Shown: piece by piece, positions 333 to 20,259 of the stretch
Layout of the letters: every line of letters begins with the position of its first letter
Position numbering within the stretch: the stretch's first letter is position 1
Source of the DNA: a virus
Length of the DNA: 21,639 bases
IMG/VR virus record: IMGVR_UViG_3300047409_000242
Span: 1-21,639 of that record
Strand: one strand, 5' to 3'
The notes under the pieces: generated by a model
Told to the model about the DNA's origin: nothing
Seen by the model: only the letters and a program-made list of their open reading frames with translations
Database searches by the model: none
Translations under genes and position numbers: made by a program

Positions 333-989
333 TTATGCGTCCGCGACGACTCCCTGGAATTGCGCTCCCGACACGCAGAGATTGCCGGCCCAGGCCAAGA
401 GCGAGACCACCGCGTCCTGGTTGGTCGAGTAACGCTTGCTCGGATCCAGCGGCACGAAATTCCGGTCGCGGTGCGGCCGTAGGAAGATGTACTTCGTGTT
501 CAGGAAGTACGCTGCATTCACCGGTGCAAAGCCACCGATCCCGCCATCGAGCACAACGTCGGCCTGCATGTACTTGACCGCCGGGAAGCCCAGGTCACCG
601 AGCTTGGAATCGGTAAAGCGCTGGATGTTCTGCAGCGACGCCATGTACAGCGCCCAGTAGCCGTTATCGACCATGATCAGATCGGTATGGTCGTTGCCAC
701 GCGCGCACTTCGCGTACATCGCGTTGAACTTCTGCTGGATGTTCGCCGACGTCGCCGCACCACCCACGGCAATCGCTGCCTGGTTCTGCCAGAACGTCCA
801 CGTCGCGCGATCGATGCCACCATACACACCCGACGTCGGCACCTTCGCCACCGCCACCGCAAGACCCACGATCTGCTTGCCACCGTTCGCCGTACCGTCC
901 GAATACAGCCCCGCAGAAATCAGGTTCTGCATCGTCGATTCGGCGACCTTGATCCGCGCCTCCATCAGATCGATGATCTGTTCCTTGCC
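333..989 (-). CDS. Major capsid protein, exon 2 (residues 107-324 of the spliced protein)
   Basis: This is the C-terminal two thirds of the major capsid protein. After the intron the frame resumes with GGC at 989 (GKEQIIDLMEAR...) and runs 218 codons to a stop at 333. The sequence contains signatures I recognise from a phage capsid family common in Burkholderiales podophages: YSDGTANGGKQIVGL near the start, GIDRATWTFWQNQ, and close to the end AYFLNTKYIFLRPHRDRNF. In those relatives the exon 1 ending LQNS is followed directly by GKEQ or GREQ, which is exactly what joining 1921 to 989 gives. The open frame extends upstream to 1025, but those 12 codons (MVTKAPERGCRL) are intron sequence and an unlikely native start. 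The protein forms the icosahedral shell, assembled on the scaffold encoded at 2400-3455. Assignment is strong; an HK97-type fold is inferred from family knowledge. Confidence 0.93.
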   Translation of the reverse strand, partial: GKEQIIDLMEARIKVAESTMQNLISAGLYSDGTANGGKQIVGLAVAVAKVPTSGVYGGIDRATWTFWQNQAAIAVGGAATSANIQQKFNAMYAKCARGNDHTDLIMVDNGYWALYMASLQNIQRFTDSKLGDLGFPAVKYMQADVVLDGGIGGFAPVNAAYFLNTKYIFLRPHRDRNFVPLDPSKRYSTNQDAVVSLLAWAGNLCVSGAQFQGVVADA

Positions 990-1920
990 CAGACGGCACC
1001 CTCGTTCCGGTGCCTTTGTTACCACGCGGGTTTTTTATCCCACGCTTCTAACGGTTCGTTTTCCCGTTAGCTCGGCATACATCATCAATCAAGGTCGTAG
1101 CGTTTCGACTTGCGCCGATTCTCGCTACGCGTCACGACGCGAAGATTTGCAATTACATGCAGACCTGACACCAATTTCCCGCGCAGGGGAATGATGTGAT
1201 CAACCTCGTGCGGTATTCCGGTTTCTTCGGAAAGGCGCTTGGCTTCGGCGTACACAGCCACCGTCGCGTCGCAGGGAATGCGCGGTGTTGCGCGCTGCCT
1301 CTGCCGCATGTACGCGTGCCAGTACCCGTTCTTGTATGCACGCGTAAGGGAGAGTCCACCACGAGTCCGTCTGCTTGCGATCGCCAAACAGCCGCAACTT
1401 TTGGTGATGCCCTGATTCACCCGGTCAAGCGTGGTGTAGATCGTTCCGCCACAGTCGCAAGTAAATTCCCATATAGCCCTGCGACCGTTATCGAATCCAA
1501 CCCGCTTTATTGCCGTCAACTTCCCAAAGACCTTTCCCGAAACCTCAAGACGAATGTTCGCGATGTACTCAGGACATTGCTTGCTGCAGAACTGCTGCCG
1601 CTTGATGAGAAACATTGCGCGAACCGCCTTGGTATTGCCGCACTTGCACTTGCAAATCCACATTGCGTTGCCGGCTCGATCCGAGGAAGTACGCTCGACG
1701 ACCGTGAGGACGCCGAATGTTTTTCCTGTCAGATCGAGTGCGATACCGCGTGTCATGCTTTTCCTTGATTGTCGGGCGCTCGTGGGTGGGTTATTGCCGT
1801 GGTTGGCTCACCACCTATGCTCTAGACCTTTCGCCTACGCTTTTCCCATTCGGCGACTTGGTACGGGATTGGCTTCGCAGCGTTCCCCGTTTCACCCGAT
1901 TTTCGAACTCCCGCTTCTTA
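990..1920 (-). ncRNA. Group I self-splicing intron interrupting the major capsid gene
   Basis: The 931-nt insertion separates the two capsid exons and folds by eye as a group I intron. P1: exon end AACUCU (1926-1921) pairs with GGAGUU (1911-1906), leaving the required U-G pair at the 5' splice site. P3: UCGGGUG (1899-1893) with CGCCCGA (1778-1772). P4: ACGGG (1890-1886) with CCCGU (1867-1863). The stretch AAACGGGGAAC...CAAUCCCGU closely resembles the T4 td core (subgroup IA). P6/P6a: ACC/GGU and UCGCC/GGCGA. P7: CGGCAAUA (1799-1792) with UAUGCCG (1079-1073), with the expected single bulged A. Three P9-type hairpins follow (1070-1048, 1045-1024, 1014-995). The intron ends in G at 990. An HNH gene fills the P8 loop. 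The splice site could shift by one base, but only this choice preserves the capsid frame and the S-G junction. Confidence 0.92.
1085..1756 (-). CDS. Intron-encoded HNH homing endonuclease with duplicated zinc-ribbon-like N-terminus
   Basis: This 223-aa protein lies wholly inside the capsid-gene intron, between the P3 and P7 3' strands (P8 loop). The C-terminal HNH nuclease motif is clear: HEVDHIIPL at residues 183-191 (His183, Asp186, His187), then Asn204 in HVIANLR, followed by a basic tail. Ahead of it are two copies of a module starting GKTFGVLTVVER (11-22) and GKVFGKLTAIKR (74-85), each followed by Cys clusters (C35, C37, C39, C57, C61; C100, C102, C121, C123) likely to bind zinc and contact DNA. 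Known intron HNH enzymes nick or cut the intronless allele near the insertion site, so the intron spreads to related phages. The start ATG follows AAGGAAAAGC. Its base composition looks less GC-rich than the flanking phage genes. Confidence 0.93.
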   Translation of the reverse strand: MTRGIALDLTGKTFGVLTVVERTSSDRAGNAMWICKCKCGNTKAVRAMFLIKRQQFCSKQCPEYIANIRLEVSGKVFGKLTAIKRVGFDNGRRAIWEFTCDCGGTIYTTLDRVNQGITKSCGCLAIASRRTRGGLSLTRAYKNGYWHAYMRQRQRATPRIPCDATVAVYAEAKRLSEETGIPHEVDHIIPLRGKLVSGLHVIANLRVVTRSENRRKSKRYDLD

Positions 1921-2238
1921 AGAGTTCTGCAACATCTCGAGGCCAGACATCGTAACTGCGGTCGCTGCCTGCTTAATATCGTATTGTGCGGCAGAAATTA
2001 CGTCTTGTGCGCCAATTGGTAAAGCTTCGTACCCGCTATACCAGCCAGCGTTGCCATTTTCCCGGAAGGAAAGCTCCTGCAAAATCACATTTCCGCCACC
2101 GAAAGGCTTGATATTTCCCTGTTCGGACATCTTGAGCAGGATTGCGTTGTTTTTTGTCACATTATCCGCAATCGTCCGCGACCGATTTTGTATGGTCGTG
2201 GCAATTACGTCAGAAATTGCCGCATTGGCAAAGGCCAT
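1921..2238 (-). CDS. Major capsid protein, exon 1 (residues 1-106)
   Basis: The N-terminal part of the capsid protein starts at the ATG at 2238 (ribosome binding site TAGGAG, 4 nt upstream) with MAFANAAISDVIATTIQNRS, a start typical of this capsid family, and ends in GLEMLQNS at 1921. The next codon, UAA (1920-1918), is the first three bases of the group I intron. The protein made without splicing would therefore be a 106-aa fragment; the 324-aa product needs splicing to the GGC at 989. The coding sequence appears less GC-rich than exon 2, which could reflect co-conversion of exon DNA along with the intron during homing. The scaffold gene lies about 160 bp upstream. Confidence 0.93.
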
Positions 2239-2399: not shown

Positions 2400-3455
2400 T
2401 CAACCGTTGAGCACGCGCTCGAGGCTGGCGCGGACTGATTCGCCGCGTGCTGCGCCGGCCGGTTGCACGCCGGTGCCGTTGGGGGCGCCCTTGATCGAGA
2501 CGTTGGCGGCGGCGGCTTGCTTCTGCGCCTGGGTGCGGGCCTGGTAGTCGCGCTCGATGAGGGTCTTGCGGATGTCGGCGTCCATGCCGATCGCCATGTC
2601 GTAGGCGGTGCGGAGATTCCCCGCGACGTTGTTCTCGATGAGCGCCGCCATGATGTGACGCACCTTGGGGAAGAACTCGTTCTGCGGGTCGTTGGCGAAA
2701 GCCTGGAACTCCTGCGAGGTCTGCTGCTGCACCTGCTGGTGGCTCGCGGCGGATCCGTACATCTTCTCGGTCAGGAGTTGCGCTGACTGTGCCTCGGCGC
2801 GCGCGATCTCGACGTTGACCGGCTCGCTCAGGTTTACCCCGTACTGCTGGGCGAGGGAGAGGATGATCGCCTTCCTGAACTCCGGCCCGCCGGTCCTGAG
2901 CTGGTGCGCGGTGGTGAGTAGCGTGCGCATGGCGGTGATCGGGGTCGCGCCTTCCGACTGCAGCTGGTCGGCGTAGGGCACGAACTCGTTGAGGATTGCT
3001 TCGGCGACATTGCCGCGGCGGGCGACGGCATCGAAGCCGTACTGGAGCTCCTGCTCGCGCTGGTGCAGGTAGGGGCGCACCTCGGCCGGGATCTTGTCGT
3101 AGTAGCCGCGCATTTCTGGGCGCCACGAGGCAGGCGGCTCGTTGAACTCCCGCGGTGGGGCAGCAACGCCGGGAGCGGGAGGGATGGCACCTTGGGGGCT
3201 AGTGGTCCCCTGCGGTGCCGGCGCCACTCCCGGCGCGCTACCTTCCTTGGGCGCGAAGCGGCCTTGCGCGTCGCGTGCACGTTCGCCGGTCGCGTCGGTC
3301 TTTTCGACGTCCGCCTGGATCGCTGGCGACTCGTCGAAGGCGAGCTCGAGGGATTCGGAGAGATTCGGCGCCGGTGTGGCGGGTGCCGCCGGTTCACCGC
3401 CGCCGCTATCCGGGGGAAGTACGTTCTCGCCTGAGACGTCCAGTGGGTCTGCCAT
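2400..3455 (-). CDS. Capsid scaffolding protein
   Basis: This 351-aa acidic protein is predicted to guide assembly of the major capsid protein and then leave the head. It lies directly upstream of the capsid gene and downstream of portal, the standard place for a scaffold in P22-like head modules. The N-terminal ~110 residues are rich in Pro, Ala, Gly and acidic residues and look disordered. The middle (about 110-300) is helix-rich with Gln/Glu/Arg-rich stretches suited to coiled coils (YLHQREQELQYGFDAV; SHQQVQQQTSQEFQAF). The C-terminus is short and basic. The start is ATG 3455, with AAGAGG about 9 nt upstream and the previous gene's TAG three bases before. There is no protease signature. 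The assignment rests on position and composition plus resemblance to scaffold-like phage proteins. Confidence 0.82.
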   Translation of the reverse strand: MADPLDVSGENVLPPDSGGGEPAAPATPAPNLSESLELAFDESPAIQADVEKTDATGERARDAQGRFAPKEGSAPGVAPAPQGTTSPQGAIPPAPGVAAPPREFNEPPASWRPEMRGYYDKIPAEVRPYLHQREQELQYGFDAVARRGNVAEAILNEFVPYADQLQSEGATPITAMRTLLTTAHQLRTGGPEFRKAIILSLAQQYGVNLSEPVNVEIARAEAQSAQLLTEKMYGSAASHQQVQQQTSQEFQAFANDPQNEFFPKVRHIMAALIENNVAGNLRTAYDMAIGMDADIRKTLIERDYQARTQAQKQAAAANVSIKGAPNGTGVQPAGAARGESVRASLERVLNG

Positions 3456-3458
3456 GTC

Positions 3459-3770
3459 CTAGCCTCTTGCCTTTCCGGTGCGCAGCGCGCGATCCGTGTG
3501 TTCCCAGAGTTGTTCCCTGAACGCCCGCCGCTCGCGCTCGGCGGCGTAGCGGTCGGCTACCGGCGCGTTGCCCTTCACTTCGTCATACGGGACCACATCG
3601 TGCTTGCCCATGTGCTCGCGTAGTGCCGAGCGCGACGCCACCACCGTGCCGTCGATCGGAGAGACGAAGGGCGTGATGTCATCGCGCACGGCTGGCGCGT
3701 CCGATACTCGTTCGCGATCAATTTCCACGAACGTCTCTGATAGGGGGTCATAGCGGTCGTAACGCGCCAT
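3459..3770 (-). CDS. Conserved hypothetical phage head-module protein
   Basis: The protein is 103 aa, starting MARYDRYD at the ATG at 3770. That start overlaps the stop of the upstream PP-loop gene in a TGATG arrangement, which favours it over an upstream in-frame GTG/ATG at 3794. It contains ITPFVSPIDGTVV followed by a short charged helix. I have seen this segment in small proteins of other phage head operons, where SPIDG precedes a Ser/Arg residue and a helical tail, but no function is known to me. No transmembrane segment, signal peptide or metal-binding cysteines are visible. Its place between the PP-loop protein and the scaffold suggests a role in head assembly or in whatever modification the neighbour performs; that is inference. 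Confidence 0.75.
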   Translation of the reverse strand: MARYDRYDPLSETFVEIDRERVSDAPAVRDDITPFVSPIDGTVVASRSALREHMGKHDVVPYDEVKGNAPVADRYAAERERRAFREQLWEHTDRALRTGKARG

Positions 3771-4516
3771 CAGGCCCCGCACATCCCCTCGCACTCCTCC
3801 GCGAACATCTCGCGCTGACCCTCGTGCTCATCACGAATGTCGGCACGCTCGAGCGGCACCAGACTGCGGTGCGCGTACTGCTCGACCCCATAGCCGCGAA
3901 TCGCCCGATCCACGGCCACCGCAGCGGCAAAGTCGCGGTCCGATAGCTCCCGCCACTCGGCGTTGCCCTTGTACGGACAGAACACGCAGGAGGATTTCGG
4001 CGGTCTTGGGTAGGCGCGGTCCGAAAGCCAGCGCAGGCAATGCAGGCGCGAGAGCCCGCGCTCGATCAGCGGATAGACGTTTCGCACGTACTGGACGCGC
4101 GCCGGTTTCATCCTCTGCGCCTCGTCGGTGGAAATCCCCACCCACAGATCGACCGGCTCCTTCGCGGTGGCGCCAAGCTCTTTCAACTTCCGGTAGAGCG
4201 GCAGGATCTTGTACCGCGCCGTGCACTGGCGCCGGCCCATGCCGCCGCGGGTGCGCCAGGGGATATCCTGAAAGTCATGCCCCGAGAGGGTCTTCCCGGC
4301 AAGCGCGTGCGCCTCGAGCGAGCCTGCGCTCACGACATGGATCGGGAACGGCAGTGACTCACTCAACCAAGCGAGCCAATCGTAGGTCGCCTCGCTTTCG
4401 GCCTGCGTGTCCGCAAAGATCGCGCACTCGGGCATCGGCGTGATCTCGCCGTGCGCGGCCATCAGCGCCATCGTGGAACTCTGCACACCGGCTCCCAGGG
4501 AGATCACGTGTCTCAT
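3770..4516 (-). CDS. PAPS-reductase/PP-loop (adenine nucleotide alpha-hydrolase-like) family protein
   Basis: This 248-aa protein has the PP-loop ATP-pyrophosphatase signature of the PAPS reductase/DndC superfamily near its N-terminus (SLGAGVQSSTMAL, residues 5-17, in place of the classic SGGxDS). Other family marks are FADTQAE (about 35-41), RRQCTARYKILPL in the middle and a paired-cysteine block SSCVFCPYKG near residues 175-184 that could bind metal. Family members activate a substrate by adenylation or handle sulfur (PAPS reduction, tRNA thiolation, DNA phosphorothioation). Which of these applies cannot be told here. The ATG at 4516 overlaps the upstream stop as TGATG, so translation is probably coupled; an upstream in-frame GTG at 4519 is less likely. 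A biosynthetic-type enzyme inside a head operon is odd, though similar genes occur in other phages. Confidence 0.85.
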   Translation of the reverse strand: MRHVISLGAGVQSSTMALMAAHGEITPMPECAIFADTQAESEATYDWLAWLSESLPFPIHVVSAGSLEAHALAGKTLSGHDFQDIPWRTRGGMGRRQCTARYKILPLYRKLKELGATAKEPVDLWVGISTDEAQRMKPARVQYVRNVYPLIERGLSRLHCLRWLSDRAYPRPPKSSCVFCPYKGNAEWRELSDRDFAAAVAVDRAIRGYGVEQYAHRSLVPLERADIRDEHEGQREMFAEECEGMCGA

Positions 4517-4701
4517 CACCAGCCCATCTCCTTGCGCGCGTCGGCGACGCTGTCGAGCACGGCCTTCAGCGCGTCGGCGGCTGTGGTGTCGGTGCGGTAC
4601 TTGTCGAAGAGCTCGAAGCGCGTCTCGAGCGCGAGCTCGAGGTGGGCGGCGAACTGCTGCGCATCACTCGGCTTCTTCGGCGGCAGGTGCAGCGCGCCCA
4701 T
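4516..4701 (-). CDS. Small hypothetical protein between portal and PP-loop gene
   Basis: A 61-residue acidic, mostly helical protein (MGALHLPPKK..., then ALETRFELFDKY and ADALKAVLDSVADARKEMGW). Its ATG at 4701 follows the portal stop codon with no gap, and its own TGA overlaps the ATG of the PP-loop gene. This seamless packing supports a real, co-translated gene. There are no cysteines or membrane segments. I do not recognise the family; a small head-assembly or adaptor role is only suggested by position. Confidence 0.7.
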   Translation of the reverse strand: MGALHLPPKKPSDAQQFAAHLELALETRFELFDKYRTDTTAADALKAVLDSVADARKEMGW

Positions 4702-7143
4702 TCAGCCGTCCCCGCCCGTGTCCTTCGGTGCGGCCTTTGCCGCTTGCTTCTGCTGCTCGAGCGCGAGCGCGCCGGCTTCCTGCTGGTGCGCCATGTCCTG
4801 CTCATGCGCGGCATCGGCGTGGGCCATTTCCTGCGCGCCCTGCACGATGTCGCCCTGCATCTGTGCGCTGGCAATCGTCGCGTCCTGCGCCGCCTTGTCG
4901 CGCGCGGCCTGCGCCTGCACCTGGGCCTTGATCAGGATCGCCTGCACCTCGGCCATCGTCTTCTCGCGGAAGGCTTCCATCTCCATCTGCACCTTGGCGC
5001 GGTCGTTCGCCATCTCGGCCTGCATCTTCTGCATCTCCATGCCGAGCTCCTGGCTTCGTGCCTGCGCCTCGGCGGCGATCTCCGCCTGCCGCGCCTGTCC
5101 TTCCATCTGCACCTTCTGCTGGTCGGACGCGGCCTTGGCCTTGAGCGCCTCGGTCTTCGGATCCGGCTGCTTCGGCGGCGGGTTCGCCTTCATGTCCTCG
5201 AAGGCGGCTTCGATGATGCCTTCGATGTCGCGTCCCACGCGGAAGCCGCGGATACCGAACATGAGGAGCGCCTGCGCGATCGGCATGAACTGCGGGTTGC
5301 CCTGCACGGCGGGGATCGCCTGCTGCAGGAACTGGGTGACCCCGGTCAGGAATTCGTTGCGCGCCGCGCGCTCCTGCTCCAAGTCCGGCTCAACCAGGGT
5401 GTCGGCGGTCACCTCGATGCGGTAGTCGATCATCTTGCCGTTACGCAGGAGCTGGAGCGCCTGCATGACCACACCCTGCGAGGACGGGAGCGGCGGTGGT
5501 GGCAGCGGTCCCGCGGGTGCGGCCGGCGGCGCGAACGGGACGACGTTGGCCGGCAGCATGCCGCCACCACCCATCGGGGGCATCGCAGGCGGTTGTGCAG
5601 AAACTGGGGGGGTACCCATTGGTGCCGGGGGTGGCTCACCGGGTGAGCCTGTCGGTGGCATCATCGGCGGTGGCGCCTGCCGTGCCGCCATCGCCGCCTG
5701 CGCGTCCTTGATCGCCTTCTGCCCGTCCGGGCTGTGCATGATCGCGCTCTGCTCGATCAAGGTCTGGTCGTCGAAGAAGGTGATCGCGACGTGGCCCATG
5801 AGCTGCACGATCTCGCCCACGAAGCGCGCCAGGTCCTGCTGCACGGCATCGAGGCGCATGGAGGCGAACTGCTGCTTGATCTTCTGCGCGCCGAGGGTCT
5901 CGTTGGGGTTCGACGCGCCGCGCACGATGTCGGAAATCCCCGTGATCTGGTAGATGTCCTGGATCAGCTGCTGGCGGATGTTGAAGAGCTTCTCCACCAC
6001 CAGGATCACCTGCTCGATCGGCAGGAAGTCCATGACGCCTTTGAGTCCGCCCTTCTCGGCGAACGCGGCCCAGGTGTCCACGGGAATCAGCTCGTTCTCG
6101 GCGCCCTCGGTCAGGAGGCGCGCGAGACCGTCCTCGGAGGCATCGCGCACGCCGACGACCTTGAGCGCCTTGGTGAGCATGTCCAAGCGCTGCGTCAGGT
6201 TGTCGATCTCGCCCGCCTGGTCCTGGTACATGCAGTAGTCGGGCACCGGAACGAGGTTCCCGGTGGTGTTGGTGGCGAAGAGCGGTCGCGGGCAGGGGAA
6301 GAACCCGGGGAAGCCCATCGGGTCCGGCTTCTCGTCGAGAAGGGTTTCCATCGCCATGTGCACCCAGCACACCTTCGAGCTGCGCTTGTCCCAGATCTCG
6401 TAGACCTTGGCCTGCTTGAACACGTTGTGCTTCGGCTCGTCGGTCTCGACGTTGCCGCGCGCGTCGGGGTGGCGCGCCGGCGTGTAGTCGAGCGGGATGT
6501 CCTTCACCTTGGGGAAGCGCGCTTCGAGCTCGTCGCGCGTCATGTAGACGATGCGCCACACGGCGGGGACTTCCTCCCACGTTCTCGAGGGGATGAAGCC
6601 GAAGTCTTCCCAGTAGACGAAATCGACCGCGGCGACGTTGCCGGAAAGGCGCGCGTAGTAGTCGTTGTCCACCGTCCCCGTCGGAGAGTTCTGCGCCTTC
6701 TGGTAGCGCACCCAGGCGCAGCCCATGCCGGGAAGCAGGCGGTCCTGCAGGGCGTGGCGCACGGTGGGATGAAAGTCCGACTGCGCCGACAACTGGAACG
6801 CGAGAACGCGCTCGAGGATCAAGCTCGCGACGCGCGCCACCTGGTCCGGGTCGGTGTAGCGGCGCATCACGATCGGCGCCGGCGGTCGCCCGTAGACGGC
6901 CGGCATCATGGTGTTGATGATCGACCACAGCAGGTTGTACTTCTTCTGCGCGGTGCCGAGCCCCGAGTCGCCCTCGCGCTCGTCGCGGTAGCGCTTGACC
7001 ACCTTCGCCGCGCGCTCGCGCCATTTCTCCATCTCCTTGTCGCAGGCGTGAATCTCCGCCTTCCAGTAGGCGCAGCGGCCCTTGCTGTCCTCGCCAAAGT
7101 CGGCGTAGGTCTCGGCGGTGGTGGCGAGTGCGGTGTCAGCCAT
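4702..7143 (-). CDS. Portal protein (P22-like, with long coiled-coil C-terminus)
   Basis: At 813 aa this is the longest gene in the window. It sits directly downstream of the terminase genes and upstream of scaffold and capsid, the standard portal position. The N-terminal ~450 residues resemble large podophage portals: helical start, YNLLWSIINTMMPAVYGRPP near residue 70-90, GMGCAWVRYQ near 140, a Trp-rich FVYWEDFGF block and ISDIVRGASNPNETLGAQK near 400. A Pro/Met/Gly-rich linker follows (about 485-565), then a second helical domain and a long Ala/Gln/Glu/Met/Lys-rich coiled coil from about 660 to the end. The dodecameric portal forms the DNA entry vertex; in P22-type portals a C-terminal helical barrel extends into the head, which could explain the coiled coil. 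Only a weak ribosome binding site (AAAGAA) precedes the ATG. Confidence 0.92.
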   Translation of the reverse strand: MADTALATTAETYADFGEDSKGRCAYWKAEIHACDKEMEKWRERAAKVVKRYRDEREGDSGLGTAQKKYNLLWSIINTMMPAVYGRPPAPIVMRRYTDPDQVARVASLILERVLAFQLSAQSDFHPTVRHALQDRLLPGMGCAWVRYQKAQNSPTGTVDNDYYARLSGNVAAVDFVYWEDFGFIPSRTWEEVPAVWRIVYMTRDELEARFPKVKDIPLDYTPARHPDARGNVETDEPKHNVFKQAKVYEIWDKRSSKVCWVHMAMETLLDEKPDPMGFPGFFPCPRPLFATNTTGNLVPVPDYCMYQDQAGEIDNLTQRLDMLTKALKVVGVRDASEDGLARLLTEGAENELIPVDTWAAFAEKGGLKGVMDFLPIEQVILVVEKLFNIRQQLIQDIYQITGISDIVRGASNPNETLGAQKIKQQFASMRLDAVQQDLARFVGEIVQLMGHVAITFFDDQTLIEQSAIMHSPDGQKAIKDAQAAMAARQAPPPMMPPTGSPGEPPPAPMGTPPVSAQPPAMPPMGGGGMLPANVVPFAPPAAPAGPLPPPPLPSSQGVVMQALQLLRNGKMIDYRIEVTADTLVEPDLEQERAARNEFLTGVTQFLQQAIPAVQGNPQFMPIAQALLMFGIRGFRVGRDIEGIIEAAFEDMKANPPPKQPDPKTEALKAKAASDQQKVQMEGQARQAEIAAEAQARSQELGMEMQKMQAEMANDRAKVQMEMEAFREKTMAEVQAILIKAQVQAQAARDKAAQDATIASAQMQGDIVQGAQEMAHADAAHEQDMAHQQEAGALALEQQKQAAKAAPKDTGGDG

Positions 7144-7153
7144 GATGGTTCTT

Positions 7154-7366
7154 TCAGCGCATCGCGAACGGATGCGAAGGCGTCACGATTTCGGTCATTC
7201 CCGGTGTCTTCCATAGCGGACGCAAGACGTGCAGGAGTTTCGGCGCGCGCCGTAACTTGGGTATAGGCCAGCCATAACTAAAAACGACTTTGAGCGGGCC
7301 AAACCTCCGTTCGGCTTCTGCCCACCATTTCGAGCGTTGGTTGAAGCGTTGCTTGGCGCGCTTCAT
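7154..7366 (-). CDS. Small basic hypothetical protein upstream of portal
   Basis: A 70-aa strongly basic protein (MKRAKQRFNQRSKWW..., many Arg, Lys and Trp). The preferred start is the ATG at 7366, which overlaps the TGA of the 44-aa gene upstream (ATGA). The frame stays open six codons further upstream, but those starts would overlap that gene more. The stop is 10 nt before the portal ATG. The coupled arrangement TerL, 44 aa, 70 aa, portal supports both tiny genes being real. No family recognised. The basic character suggests nucleic-acid contact, perhaps in packaging, but this is inference. Confidence 0.55.
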   Translation of the reverse strand: MKRAKQRFNQRSKWWAEAERRFGPLKVVFSYGWPIPKLRRAPKLLHVLRPLWKTPGMTEIVTPSHPFAMR

Positions 7367-7497
7367 GCGGTCAGCTTCCACCACCAGTTGCCCATGGCGC
7401 GCAGCGTGCCATTGAAGATGGCGAGATACGGAAATTCACCGCGTTCAAAGCGAATCTCCCAATGTCCGCGCCACCAGCGAATGTGCGGTTTCGTCAT
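7363..7497 (-). CDS. Tiny tryptophan-rich hypothetical protein (44 aa)
   Basis: This small frame runs from the ATG at 7497, overlapping the large-terminase TGA, to a TGA at 7363-7365 that overlaps the next ATG. The peptide starts MTKPHIRWWRGHWEIRF and ends GNWWWKLTA, so 6 of 44 residues are Trp, together with many basic residues. ATGA overlaps at both ends, in the same operon and strand, are the main evidence. Similar short W-rich proteins (a pattern like I-R-W-W-x-G-x-W) occur in other phages near terminase genes, as far as I recall, but without known function. Confidence 0.55.
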   Translation of the reverse strand: MTKPHIRWWRGHWEIRFERGEFPYLAIFNGTLRAMGNWWWKLTA

Positions 7498-9098
7498 ATG
7501 CGCCGGTACGCGGGTGCCCGCGACTGCTGCCACAGGTCATTCAGGCGCACGTTGCCGCCAAAGGGTTTCGCCGGGTCATAGGGGACCGCGGCGAACGCCG
7601 GATCCGAGCCGTCGTCACGCGGGACGGTGCGGGCGCGGAGTTTCGGCCACGCTCTCCCCACGTGCGCGAGCGCATCGGCCTGGTCGTCGTGTGCACCAAA
7701 GGGGAAACTCAGCATCTCGGCGAGGAACGCCTCGAGCCACAGAGCCTCGTCGGGGAGGTACACCCCGCGCTCCTGCGCGAGCCCCTGCAGGCTTCCCGCC
7801 TTCGCCGCCTTGCTCGCCTGCCGGGTGAGGCAGATGTGCCACAGCGGAAGGTTGGCGCGCTTGAGCCTCTGCCGCGCCCACGGCAGGACCGACTGCATGA
7901 TGTTGTCGTTCTCGTAGATCCACGCACTCGGCCGGTACTTCGAGCAGAGCGCAATCAGGGCGTTGAGCGAATCGTCGATCGCCACGCGCTGGCGCCACAG
8001 CGTCCGCACAAAAAGGTCGGAGGAGGGTGCGATGGAGACGACCACGAAGACCGAGTAGTCGCCCCCGCTCGGGGTGAGCGCCAGGTCGGAGCAGATGACG
8101 GTGTTGAGCTCCCGCTCAGGGGCGAGATCCTGCGGCCGGTAGTAGCGAAACCACGCGTCGCGGAAGAAGTCGCCCGTGGCCGCGGTGGGACGCCCCTGGT
8201 AGAGCGCCTGGAACTGACTCACGCCGAGCGTGACCTTGAGCGCGCGCACCGCGGGCTCGTCGAAGCGCGCCGGCCATAGGGCGCGGCCTTCCTCGTCCAG
8301 GGCCGGGTAGTTGCGATGCGTCCAGCGCTCCCCGCTCGCATCATCGCTTGATGCGATCAGCCTGCCGAGGATGTCGTTATAGCGCCAGCGGGTGCCGATG
8401 CCGACGATGAACCCGTTCGGCGGCAATCTGGTTCGCGCACTCGTCGCGTACCAGTTCCACAGCGTCGAGCGCATGAGCTCGGAATCGGCCTCCTCCTGGC
8501 CCTTCACCAGATCGTCGAGGATGAGATGCGCGCCGAGTCCGGTGAGCAAACCCCCGGCTCCGGTGCCACGGATGAACCCGTCCTGCGGGGTGCGCAGAAG
8601 GTCGGAGGCCTGCCCGTCATCGGCGAGCGTGGTGCCGGGAAAGATCTCGGCATAGGCCGGCGCCAGCATGACCCCGCGGCAAGCCCTGACATGCTCGCGC
8701 GAGAGCTCCAGCGAATAGGAGGCAACGATCAGCTTCTCGGTCGGCCGCGCCCCGACGAGAAACGCCGGAAAGAGAATCGCGCACAGCCTCGACTTGCCAT
8801 GCCTTGGCGGCGCGGAAATGAGGAGCCTCCTCTCCGTCCCATCAAACACCGCCTGCAGGTCGGCAATCACACTCTCGTGAAAGGCGTCGAACTGATACGC
8901 CTCGAGATCGTCCGCCGTCACGTAGGCAATGAACCAGCGCAGGCGCACCTGGGCAATCCGCCGCGCCAGACGCAGCGCAAAACTCTGATCCCCATTCGCC
9001 ATGTCGGGACCCAACTTCCTCGCCGGCAAGGCCACCGCGAAGATCTCCGCGCAACGCGCATCAGAGAACTCCGCTACGCTCTGCGGCGCATCAGGCAT
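7494..9098 (-). CDS. terL: Terminase large subunit (packaging ATPase and nuclease)
   Basis: The motor that translocates DNA into the prohead and cuts concatemers. From the ATG at 9098 the product is 534 aa. ATPase domain: Walker A SAPPRHGKS at 95-103, Walker B LILDD at 192-196, and the coupling motif region GIGTRWR near 233-239. The nuclease domain (RNase H-like) has ICSDLAL with Asp338, YEND with Glu396 and HDDQADA at 470-476, the expected acidic triad. The frame is open to a TTG at 9131, but the ATG at 9098 gives only an 8-nt overlap with the small-subunit gene, whereas the TTG would overlap 41 nt, so ATG is chosen. It is followed, with ATGA overlap, by the 44-aa gene. Confidence 0.95.
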   Translation of the reverse strand: MPDAPQSVAEFSDARCAEIFAVALPARKLGPDMANGDQSFALRLARRIAQVRLRWFIAYVTADDLEAYQFDAFHESVIADLQAVFDGTERRLLISAPPRHGKSRLCAILFPAFLVGARPTEKLIVASYSLELSREHVRACRGVMLAPAYAEIFPGTTLADDGQASDLLRTPQDGFIRGTGAGGLLTGLGAHLILDDLVKGQEEADSELMRSTLWNWYATSARTRLPPNGFIVGIGTRWRYNDILGRLIASSDDASGERWTHRNYPALDEEGRALWPARFDEPAVRALKVTLGVSQFQALYQGRPTAATGDFFRDAWFRYYRPQDLAPERELNTVICSDLALTPSGGDYSVFVVVSIAPSSDLFVRTLWRQRVAIDDSLNALIALCSKYRPSAWIYENDNIMQSVLPWARQRLKRANLPLWHICLTRQASKAAKAGSLQGLAQERGVYLPDEALWLEAFLAEMLSFPFGAHDDQADALAHVGRAWPKLRARTVPRDDGSDPAFAAVPYDPAKPFGGNVRLNDLWQQSRAPAYRRI

Positions 9099-9609
9099 CG
9101 GGCGGAGACATCGATTCGGGGTCGAGATCAATCACCGGCTGACCCATACCCCCGTTGCCGAAACGCTCCATCGCATGCTGGATCAACTCCGCGTCCGTCA
9201 TGCCAGCAAGCGTGTTGTTCGATACCAACCGCAGCGTCGCCTCCTTCGGCGCCGAGCCCCACCCCAGCTGCAGGAGATACCCCGCCGCCCTGCACCTCAC
9301 GTTCATCTCCTGCTTCGCGTCATTCACGCATGAACGCAACGTCTGCACCGCCTCCCACGTCGCCTCCCGCGAGAGCTCCCCCAACGTCACCTGCCGACCA
9401 TCAGGGGTCGCCACCAGCAGCGCCCGCCGACCCTGGTGCTGCCGCGGATCATCCTTCACGAACGGCTTGACCGGATTCCCATTCCCCGGCCCCTTGGCCG
9501 GACCACCGCAGCTCACTCCTTTGCCCGCACCCTTGGCGGGGCCGCTACCACTACCCTTCGCCGGACCTCCCCACCCCGCCCCCTTCGCCAGACCGTGGTT
9601 GTGGCTCAT
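9091..9609 (-). CDS. Putative terminase small subunit with GPAKG repeats
   Basis: This 172-aa protein is called small terminase by position: directly upstream of the large terminase, overlapping it by 8 nt. The first ~48 residues are four imperfect Gly-Pro-Ala-Lys-Gly units (GGPAKGSGSGPAKGAGKG), a basic flexible tail that could touch DNA or the motor. From about 60 onward it looks like a compact helical domain (VTLGELSREATWEAVQTLRS and EMNVRCRAAGYLLQLGWG), as in small proteins that bind pac/cos DNA. The ATG overlaps the methyltransferase stop (ATGA). No classic HTH consensus is obvious, so the function is inferred from context; recognition of the packaging start is the likely job. Confidence 0.7.
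   Translation of the reverse strand: MSHNHGLAKGAGWGGPAKGSGSGPAKGAGKGVSCGGPAKGPGNGNPVKPFVKDDPRQHQGRRALLVATPDGRQVTLGELSREATWEAVQTLRSCVNDAKQEMNVRCRAAGYLLQLGWGSAPKEATLRLVSNNTLAGMTDAELIQHAMERFGNGGMGQPVIDLDPESMSPPDA
9491..9594. repeat. Four imperfect 14-bp repeats encoding GPAKG units
   Basis: Copies of CCCTTSGCCGGACC-like sequence occur at 9491, 9530, 9554 and 9581 within the 5' end of the small-terminase gene. They encode the Gly-Pro-Ala-Lys-Gly repeats (read on the minus strand). Such in-frame repeats can expand or contract by slippage. Confidence 0.6.
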
Positions 9610-18969: not shown

Positions 18970-19843
18970 TCATGCCGCGCGCCTGACCGGCCTGGGCGGT
19001 AGCGATGCCGCCCCGGCGCTGGGGTTGTCGCCGTACAAGAGCGCGCTGGAGCTCTACTACGAGAAGTTGGGCGAGGCGCCGGCGGTCGAGGAGAGCGAGG
19101 CGATGCGCTTCGGCACGCTCCTCGAGCCAGTCGTGCGCGGCGAGTACATGCGCCGCACCGGCAAGAACGTCGTCTTCGGCCAACCGATGCTGCGAAGCGA
19201 GCGCTATCGCTGGATGCTCGCGAACCTCGACGGCCGCACTGACGATCGCGTCGTCGAATTCAAGACCGCGCGCGACGACAAGCTATGGGGCGAGCCGGGG
19301 TCCGACGATGTGCCCGCGGCCTATCTGCTCCAGGTCACGCACTACATGATCGTCACCGAAGCGCAACTCGCCGACATTGCGGTGCTGATCGGCGGGAGCG
19401 ATTTCCGCATCTACACCGTGCCGCTCAAGGCCGAGTTGGCCGAGCTGGTGATCGACGGCGAGCGCGAATTCTGGAGCGCGGTGGAAAGCCGGGATCCGCC
19501 GGCCCCGTCAACGCTCGCCGAGATCAACATGCGCTGGCGCGTGTCCCAGGCGCGCACGATCGACCTTCCGCCCAACATCGCGAAGGCGTGCGAGCGTCTG
19601 GCGGAACTGCGCGACGAGACCGTGCGTATCGAGGAGGAGTCCGAACGCTGCGAGGCGATCGTCAAGATGGAGATGCGCGACGCCGACACCGGCTTGATAG
19701 ATGGCGTGCCGGCCGTGACTTGGAAGCAGGCGAAGTCCTCACGGCTGATCGACGTCAAGCGGCTGCGCGCAGAAGCACCAGTTATCGCAATGCAGTTCGA
19801 GTACGAACGTCCCGGCGCGCGTAGATTTTTGCTCAAGCTATGA
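18956..19843 (+). CDS. YqaJ-type viral recombinase/exonuclease
   Basis: A 295-aa lambda-exonuclease-like protein (YqaJ family) that degrades one strand of double-stranded DNA ends so that the annealing protein can act. Signatures: GGSDAA at 14-19, FGTLLEP at 52-58 with Glu57, LANLDGR at 88-94 with Asp92, EFKTA at 101-105 (Glu101, Lys103), and QVTHYM at 126-131. This is the full catalytic set of the PD-(D/E)XK fold in this family. A helical C-terminal region (about 195-260) follows. It pairs with the RecT-like protein encoded after the HNH gene. The product is normal in length for the family. The stop overlaps the HNH start. Confidence 0.93.
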   Translation: MGKLDHAARLTGLGGSDAAPALGLSPYKSALELYYEKLGEAPAVEESEAMRFGTLLEPVVRGEYMRRTGKNVVFGQPMLRSERYRWMLANLDGRTDDRVVEFKTARDDKLWGEPGSDDVPAAYLLQVTHYMIVTEAQLADIAVLIGGSDFRIYTVPLKAELAELVIDGEREFWSAVESRDPPAPSTLAEINMRWRVSQARTIDLPPNIAKACERLAELRDETVRIEEESERCEAIVKMEMRDADTGLIDGVPAVTWKQAKSSRLIDVKRLRAEAPVIAMQFEYERPGARRFLLKL

Positions 19844-20259
19844 AGAAACGCGGTCCCAACGGCGGGCAGCATTTGACGCCGAACGGCTATCTACGTCAAA
19901 CGATCAATCACAAGCGCATGCAAGTGCATCGAGCGATTGCCGAAGCAGTTCTCGGCCGACCGCTCAAGAGTAACGAGGTCGTGCATCACATCAATGGCGA
20001 CAGGGCCGACAACAGCAACAGCAATTTGTTGATCTGCACCGCCTCCTATCATCAAGAAATCCATCGGCGCCAAGACGCGCTCATGATCTGCGGAAACGCC
20101 AACTGGCACTTATGTGTTCGCTGCAAAAAGTATGACGATCCGCAATTTATGGTGCGTCAGGGTAAGGGTTCAATGGAGCACCGTGCGTGCCGAAACGAGC
20201 ACGCGCGAAATATGATGAGGAAAAGGAAATGGGTGAATCCGCCGTTGCTGTTCCCGTGA
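19840..20259 (+). CDS. Free-standing HNH endonuclease between exonuclease and annealase genes
   Basis: A 139-aa HNH protein of the type that often invades phage genomes. The core is VVHHINGDRADNSNSNLLIC (about 47-66; His49, His50, Asn52, Asp54 and Asn62), followed by TASYHQEIHRR that completes the metal site, and preceded by RMQVHRAIAEAVLGRPL. Cysteines at WHLCVRCKKYDD and further on could form a small zinc knuckle. The ATG overlaps the exonuclease stop (ATGA), and the 3' end overlaps the annealase start by 31 nt. Codon use and base composition look less GC-rich than the exonuclease. It may be a homing enzyme without intron that separates two genes normally adjacent. Confidence 0.9.
   Translation: MKKRGPNGGQHLTPNGYLRQTINHKRMQVHRAIAEAVLGRPLKSNEVVHHINGDRADNSNSNLLICTASYHQEIHRRQDALMICGNANWHLCVRCKKYDDPQFMVRQGKGSMEHRACRNEHARNMMRKRKWVNPPLLFP

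Follow-up and report, generated by a model that had tools for sequence, protein, structure and literature searches.

In an uncultured phage, what is the insert that splits the gene for the major capsid protein (MCP), and how did it come to lie there? The DNA analysed here is the 21,639-nt stretch at positions 1 to 21,639 of IMG/VR record IMGVR_UViG_3300047409_000242 (the window), whose list of open reading frames holds, on the minus strand, a frame of 106 codons at 2238-1918 and a longer one that ends at 333. Sequence comparisons confirm the reading that a minus-strand group I intron lies inside this MCP gene, and we consider it very probable that positions 990-1920 are a mobile self-splicing group I intron, IA-like, inserted after MCP codon 106 and carrying an HNH homing gene. 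The locus is composed of the following parts:

1921-2238, minus strand: exon 1 of the MCP gene, codons 1-106 (phrog_9953 profile positions 4-107, E 6e-28; splice model).
990-1920, minus strand: group I intron, 931 nt (R1 covariance match, pair counts and splice model).
1085-1756, minus strand: HNH homing-endonuclease ORF, 223 aa, in the P8 loop (phrog_374, E 6e-32).
333-989, minus strand: exon 2 of the MCP gene, codons 107-324 plus stop (phrog_9953 profile positions 108-328, E 5e-77).

Both capsid frames match the same PHROG family, phrog_9953 (major head protein), and their profile positions 107 and 108 adjoin to the residue across a distance of exactly 931 nt, which bears out the claim of an earlier note on this DNA that they are two parts of one capsid protein; together they cover profile positions 4-328 of 329. 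Exon 1 ends in ...CTG/TTG CAG AAC TCT, the intron begins with TAAGAAG and ends in GTCTG, and the 3' splice site falls between GTCTG and GGC, with G as the last base of the intron. The first intron codon, directly past the 5' splice site, is an in-frame TAA (1918-1920). Joining AAC TCT to GGC AAG gives a 324-aa capsid protein with the NS-GKEQ sequence that had been expected of intronless capsid proteins, and the 80 viral relatives found with the spliced protein do run uninterrupted through the window's exon junction; one of the 80, L020, is interrupted at another place in the gene. Independent tests thus agree that the proposed intron borders, and the splitting of a phage major capsid gene, are correct to the base. 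Among annotated relatives, the MCPs of Stenotrophomonas phage BUCT555 and Myxococcus phage Mx8 are 62% and 57% identical; an AlphaFold model of a relative's capsid protein was poor (pLDDT 39) and was not used to argue for an HK97-type fold.

Within the intron, the structural elements are placed as follows:

1905-1927, minus strand: P1, exon end GAACUCU (1927-1921) with guide GGAGUUC (1911-1905) and a terminal U-G pair (splice model).
1893-1899, minus strand: P3 5' strand, UCGGGUG, partner at 1778-1772 (97.9% paired).
1863-1890, minus strand: P4, ACGGG (1890-1886) with CCCGU (1867-1863) and a short P5 inside (read from sequence).
1826-1862, minus strand: P6, ACC/GGU, and P6a, UCGCC/GGCGA (100% and 96% paired, covariation).
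1816-1822, minus strand: P7 5' strand, G-(bulged A)-GCAUA, partner at 1079-1074, the guanosine-binding helix (100% paired).
1785-1815, minus strand: P7.1, GGU.GG/CC.ACC (99% paired, covariation).
1772-1778, minus strand: P3 3' strand, CGCCCGA (pair counts).
1763-1771, minus strand: P8 5' strand, CAAUCAAGG, holding most of the ORF's AAGGA ribosome site.
1086-1094, minus strand: P8 3' strand, CCUUGAUUG, which overlaps the final ORF codons (93.9% paired).
1074-1079, minus strand: P7 3' strand, UAUGCC (pair counts).
1048-1070, minus strand: P9 hairpin, CUAACGG/CCGUUAG (pair counts).
1024-1045, minus strand: P9.1-type hairpin, GCGUGGG/CCCGCGU (read from sequence).
995-1014, minus strand: P9.2-type hairpin, GGCACC/GGUGCC, shortly 5' of the 3' splice site (read from sequence).

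All the elements named earlier are present: P1 with its terminal U-G, P3, P4, P6a, P7 with its bulged A, three 3' hairpins and the final G. The P1 guide pairs with its own exon over seven base pairs, and P8 has nine perfect pairs flanking the ORF. The presence of P7.1 (99% paired, with covariation) makes this a P7.1-bearing phage type, perhaps IA-like; P7.2 is without clear limits. The (G)TAACA stretch found before most 3' splice sites of the intron family is missing in the window, where an extra hairpin stands instead.

An Rfam scan of the window gave no match to the group I model RF00028, at the cut-off or at E<=10, most likely because the 672-base ORF in the P8 loop splits the core. We therefore used a covariance model, R1, built from 21 introns fetched by a core motif, with the window and L020 excluded. 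R1 finds one place in the window, 1902-1770 on the minus strand (99.6 bits, E 5.9e-23), so that a covariance search with a model built without the window supports the group I claim though RF00028 gave no match. In an alignment of 20 introns, including that of the window with its ORF removed, the 36 pairs of P3, P6, P6a, P7, P7.1, P8 and P9 are 97.5% formed, and 24 of the 36 show changes on both sides; P4 was left out of these counts because its register shifts by one base among relatives. As a control, one strand was displaced by one to three columns, which left only 32-39% paired. The P7 pseudoknot is 100% paired in the 20 sequences, with four of its six pairs covarying. Given the R1 score, the 97.5% pairing and the 24 compensated pairs, the helices go beyond chance. 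Sibling introns reach 53-96 bits with RF00028 (Intron_gpI; cut-off 50), and 12 of 16 sampled sibling loci score above the cut-off at 53-84 bits, whereas the window intron, its core split by its ORF, goes unreported. By BLASTN the window intron matches annotated phages in small pieces only, and short stretches of the sibling introns match published phage genomes.

The HNH frame, which had no part in the earlier claim, is open over 223 codons and is central to how the intron reached the capsid gene. Its protein has two Cys-rich repeats followed by a C-terminal HNH motif (read from sequence); the Pfam HNH score is 15.4 bits, under the cut-off of 21.4, and a PDB sequence search with the protein gave no useful match. 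The HNH ORF of the L182 site-106 intron is likewise placed behind P3' in P8, and its protein shares with that of the window 44% identity and the motif VDHI.PLRG..SGLHV..NL...TR..N..K. The AAGGA ribosome site of the window ORF overlaps the P8 5' strand, so the folded ribozyme should hide it, and the last ORF codons form the P8 3' strand. Sequestered ribosome sites are known for the endonucleases of the T4 td, nrdB and nrdD introns, as is exon co-conversion (PMC2988022).

The exons, borders, ribozyme core, intact ORF and empty sites are directly visible in the DNA, as is the filling of the same or a neighbouring site elsewhere; splicing, cleavage, homing and a translational switch are what we infer from them. 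Judging from the intron's anatomy, the transcript would fold so that the exon-1 end GAACUCU docks on the guide sequence to form P1. Free guanosine bound in P7 would attack behind the exon-terminal U, and the freed exon 1 would then attack behind the last G of the intron, which would rejoin NS to GKEQ and give back the capsid protein of 324 aa. Ribosomes would be halted at the splice site by the TAA with which the intron begins, and translation would thereby be kept out of the ribozyme. Because the ribosome site lies in a P8 strand, folding of the ribozyme and translation of the enzyme are probably mutually exclusive. The predicted target of the HNH enzyme is the region near codon 106 in capsid genes that lack an intron, and repair of a cut there would copy the intron in.

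Could this group I intron have lost the ability to splice, leaving a broken capsid gene in a defective phage or prophage remnant? We think this improbable. Splicing is deduced from the DNA, and the intron's 3' end departs from the family pattern, but all core helices are intact, the guide matches this very exon, the HNH frame is open over its 223 codons and both exons are open. The encoded capsid protein moreover equals that of L020 bar one residue, and this, with the open exons, argues that the gene is under selection.

Free-standing HNH genes beside structural genes are common in phages, and possible start codons are present in both capsid halves, so one might see no intron here at all, only an HNH gene flanked by two capsid genes, each translated on its own. 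If exon 2 had its own start, however, it would carry 12 extra residues that are absent from relatives, and a plain HNH insertion leaves a complete, covarying ribozyme core unexplained. Nor does an intein fit, since it requires an open frame, whereas the insert opens with an in-frame stop and its 931 nt are no multiple of three; we give either form of this explanation almost no credence. Just as improbable is a chimeric assembly joining a foreign intron to a capsid gene: the sequence is a metagenomic contig, but the guide pairs with the exon over seven base pairs, and L181, an unrelated contig, has an intron at this codon too. A mobile self-splicing intron thus remains our preferred reading of 990-1920.

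How often do such introns choose a capsid gene? A 17-base core stretch of the window intron, CCCACGAGCGCCCGACA, was searched in viral contigs, the capsid gene playing no part, and returned 54 loci, all of which except L131 and L161 share a wider core. Major capsid genes host 24 of the resulting 52 introns, a set that includes some near-duplicate loci. Eighteen of the 54 loci have introns in homologues of the window's capsid gene, and six further loci in a second major-head-protein family, phrog_1328 (L134, L147, L160 and L170 by profile, L144 and L149 by similarity to these). One locus, L172, has its intron in a ribonucleotide reductase gene, and profile searches for several other host genes gave no match. 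The earlier view that a capsid gene is an uncommon place does not hold for this lineage, and capsid introns have been published. Two genes of unknown function also hold introns of the lineage, three in L152 (10401-11826) and two in L154 (13880-14287); the core of L154 is, at 76%, the nearest to that of the window among those found.

Published cases place the locus in context. The intron in the MCP gene of mycobacteriophage LittleE, the splicing of which was shown in vivo by RT-PCR and protein sequencing, is about 820 nt long and lies in an HK97-like capsid gene; it resembles that of the window in its homing-endonuclease ORF and its place in a capsid gene (PMC3706429), and also in the U before the intron, the G at its end and the stop codon soon past the 5' splice site. 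It differs in capsid family and host and in being the single intron of its gene, and its ORF is LAGLIDADG-like and on the opposite strand, as against the window's HNH ORF (PMC3706429); the same paper cites Tuc2009 among capsid-gene introns. The T4 td, nrdB and nrdD introns are likewise phage group I introns with endonuclease ORFs (I-Tev) in peripheral loops (PMC2988022), but sit in nucleotide-metabolism genes.

Several introns in one gene are also on record. A crAss-like phage MCP gene lies in five fragments with group I domains in three of the four gaps (PMC7886860); those are large gut phages with recoded genomes and another capsid lineage, whereas in relatives of the window, on contigs of roughly 18-90 kb, single genes reach six to nine modelled introns. 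The MCP gene of Faustovirus has 12 introns, five of them group I and two with GIY-YIG ORFs (PMC6247863), but this is a eukaryotic giant virus with a mix of group I and spliceosome-like introns, while all those found here are group I and in bacterial viruses. Genomes of Jug phages hold 18.5 group I introns on average (PMC12363816), and Bastillevirinae have up to three introns per gene (PMC11878797). No report of nine introns in one phage gene was found in a literature search that left most subscription journals outside. Capsid introns and multi-intron capsid genes are thus already published, and it is their density in small phages that looks unusual.

This density was measured by a spliced-alignment script that requires a U at the exon end and a G at the intron end and gives a mild bonus for P1. 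It modelled both the window and L020 correctly and was then run on relatives with 60 intronless capsid proteins as its profile; introns predicted within codons 1-9 of genes with no other interruption are artefacts and were not counted. In the capsid genes of the window and its relatives it models 42 introns at 25 sites, of which 34 introns at 19 sites are backed by R1 at >=59 bits or by an RF00028 match (R1 training took in L126, L162 and L166 and left out the window, L020, L214, L217, L233 and L239). The motif (G)TAACA...G, of which the script had no knowledge, stands at the end of most modelled introns. Many of the 42, that of the window included, also have an in-frame stop right past the 5' splice site.

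In L178 (IMGVR_UViG_3300005434_000025, 2500-9500, minus strand), a complete capsid protein requires the removal of nine introns, at profile positions 6, 27, 65, 78, 123, 279, 295, 310 and 325, leaving exons down to about 40 nt; seven of the nine score 69-117 bits with R1, and those at positions 6 and 279 only 17 and 12. L180 has six introns (four strong), L239 six (four supported), L179 four, L181 three, and L182, L183, L214 and L187 two or more. Among 80 capsid loci sampled by exon segment, interior introns occur in nine, eight of them with model support, while none of 48 capsid loci from bacterial genome assemblies has a supported intron. L315, from a bacterial genome bin, was a candidate for a split capsid gene and was dropped for lack of intron support. 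Residue conservation is no higher at the insertion sites than at random sites (p 0.31).

The same genes offer a view of how the introns spread. L020, about 92% identical to the window in neighbouring DNA, is without the window's intron and has, after codon 84, a 1,025-nt intron with a GIY-YIG-like ORF inside. The window's own codon (site 105) is also filled in L181, and the next codon downstream in L182 and L214; an intron of L129/L182 first placed at the window's own site was reassigned to that downstream codon. In a tree of the cores, whose branches rest on about 130 positions, introns of different phages at the same site often group (123, 295, 310, and L178/L180 at 27), which fits homing or descent, whereas the grouping of L181 site 105 with L178 site 295 (88% identity) fits movement into new sites. 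The L181 intron therefore fails as the nearest relative of the window's, to which its core is 70% identical, and the two probably arrived separately at the same codon. The core of the L182 site-106 intron sits on another branch than that of the window despite the homologous HNH proteins, and GIY-YIG proteins are homologous between site 26 (L184, L185, L233) and site 27 (L178, L180, L186, L217). From these homologous endonucleases at adjacent sites, differing cores and cross-site groups, endonuclease genes and ribozyme cores seem to have been shuffled while targets persisted. Homologous endonucleases at sites exactly one codon apart make two independent cases (105/106 and 26/27), and the L181 intron at site 58 has a LAGLIDADG-like ORF (motifs read from sequence).

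A further feature of the gene is silent. Over codons 1-106 (window 1921-2238; L020 1724-1975 and from 3001 on) the proteins of the window and L020 are identical and yet only 48% of third positions are equal, against 92% over codons 107-250, and third-position GC is 0.55 and 0.64 there against about 0.8 downstream. Among 39 non-redundant intronless pairs with >=98% protein identity in this region none is as low (minimum 0.50, mean 0.73). The other intron-bearing pairs, which are few and mutually dependent, are equally low in two cases (L232/L233, 0.47; L182/L217, 0.48) and not low in a third (L178/L179, 0.66). Co-conversion from a distant phage normally brings amino-acid changes too. It is possible that the silent changes were selected to spoil the targets of rival endonucleases.

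We tentatively suggest, as a doubtful but possible view of the whole, that the capsid gene is a battleground on which one group I intron lineage with HNH, GIY-YIG and LAGLIDADG-like enzymes has taken some 25 sites, up to nine per gene, with synonymous recoding as escape or exclusion. Its parts differ in strength: a multi-site swarm is well supported, while arms-race recoding around targets with the protein unchanged is speculative. That one lineage has targeted the capsid gene repeatedly and at many sites is more interesting than the window intron alone. The gene is expressed in bulk late in infection, so self-splicing there strictly tests how benign an element is, and in a small phage's gene with nine introns every one would need correct removal. 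Close relatives with empty, single and multiple filled sites form a natural series for homing and site choice, and could show whether the silent recoding of an essential gene is driven by rival endonucleases. For annotation, the series carries two warnings: intron-bearing capsid genes show up in pieces, and an intron with a long ORF in the middle of its core is overlooked by standard Rfam scans.

Another HNH gene (Pfam HNH_3, E 8e-12) lies elsewhere in the window, at 19840-20259 on the plus strand; it has an early gene on either side and appears to stand free.
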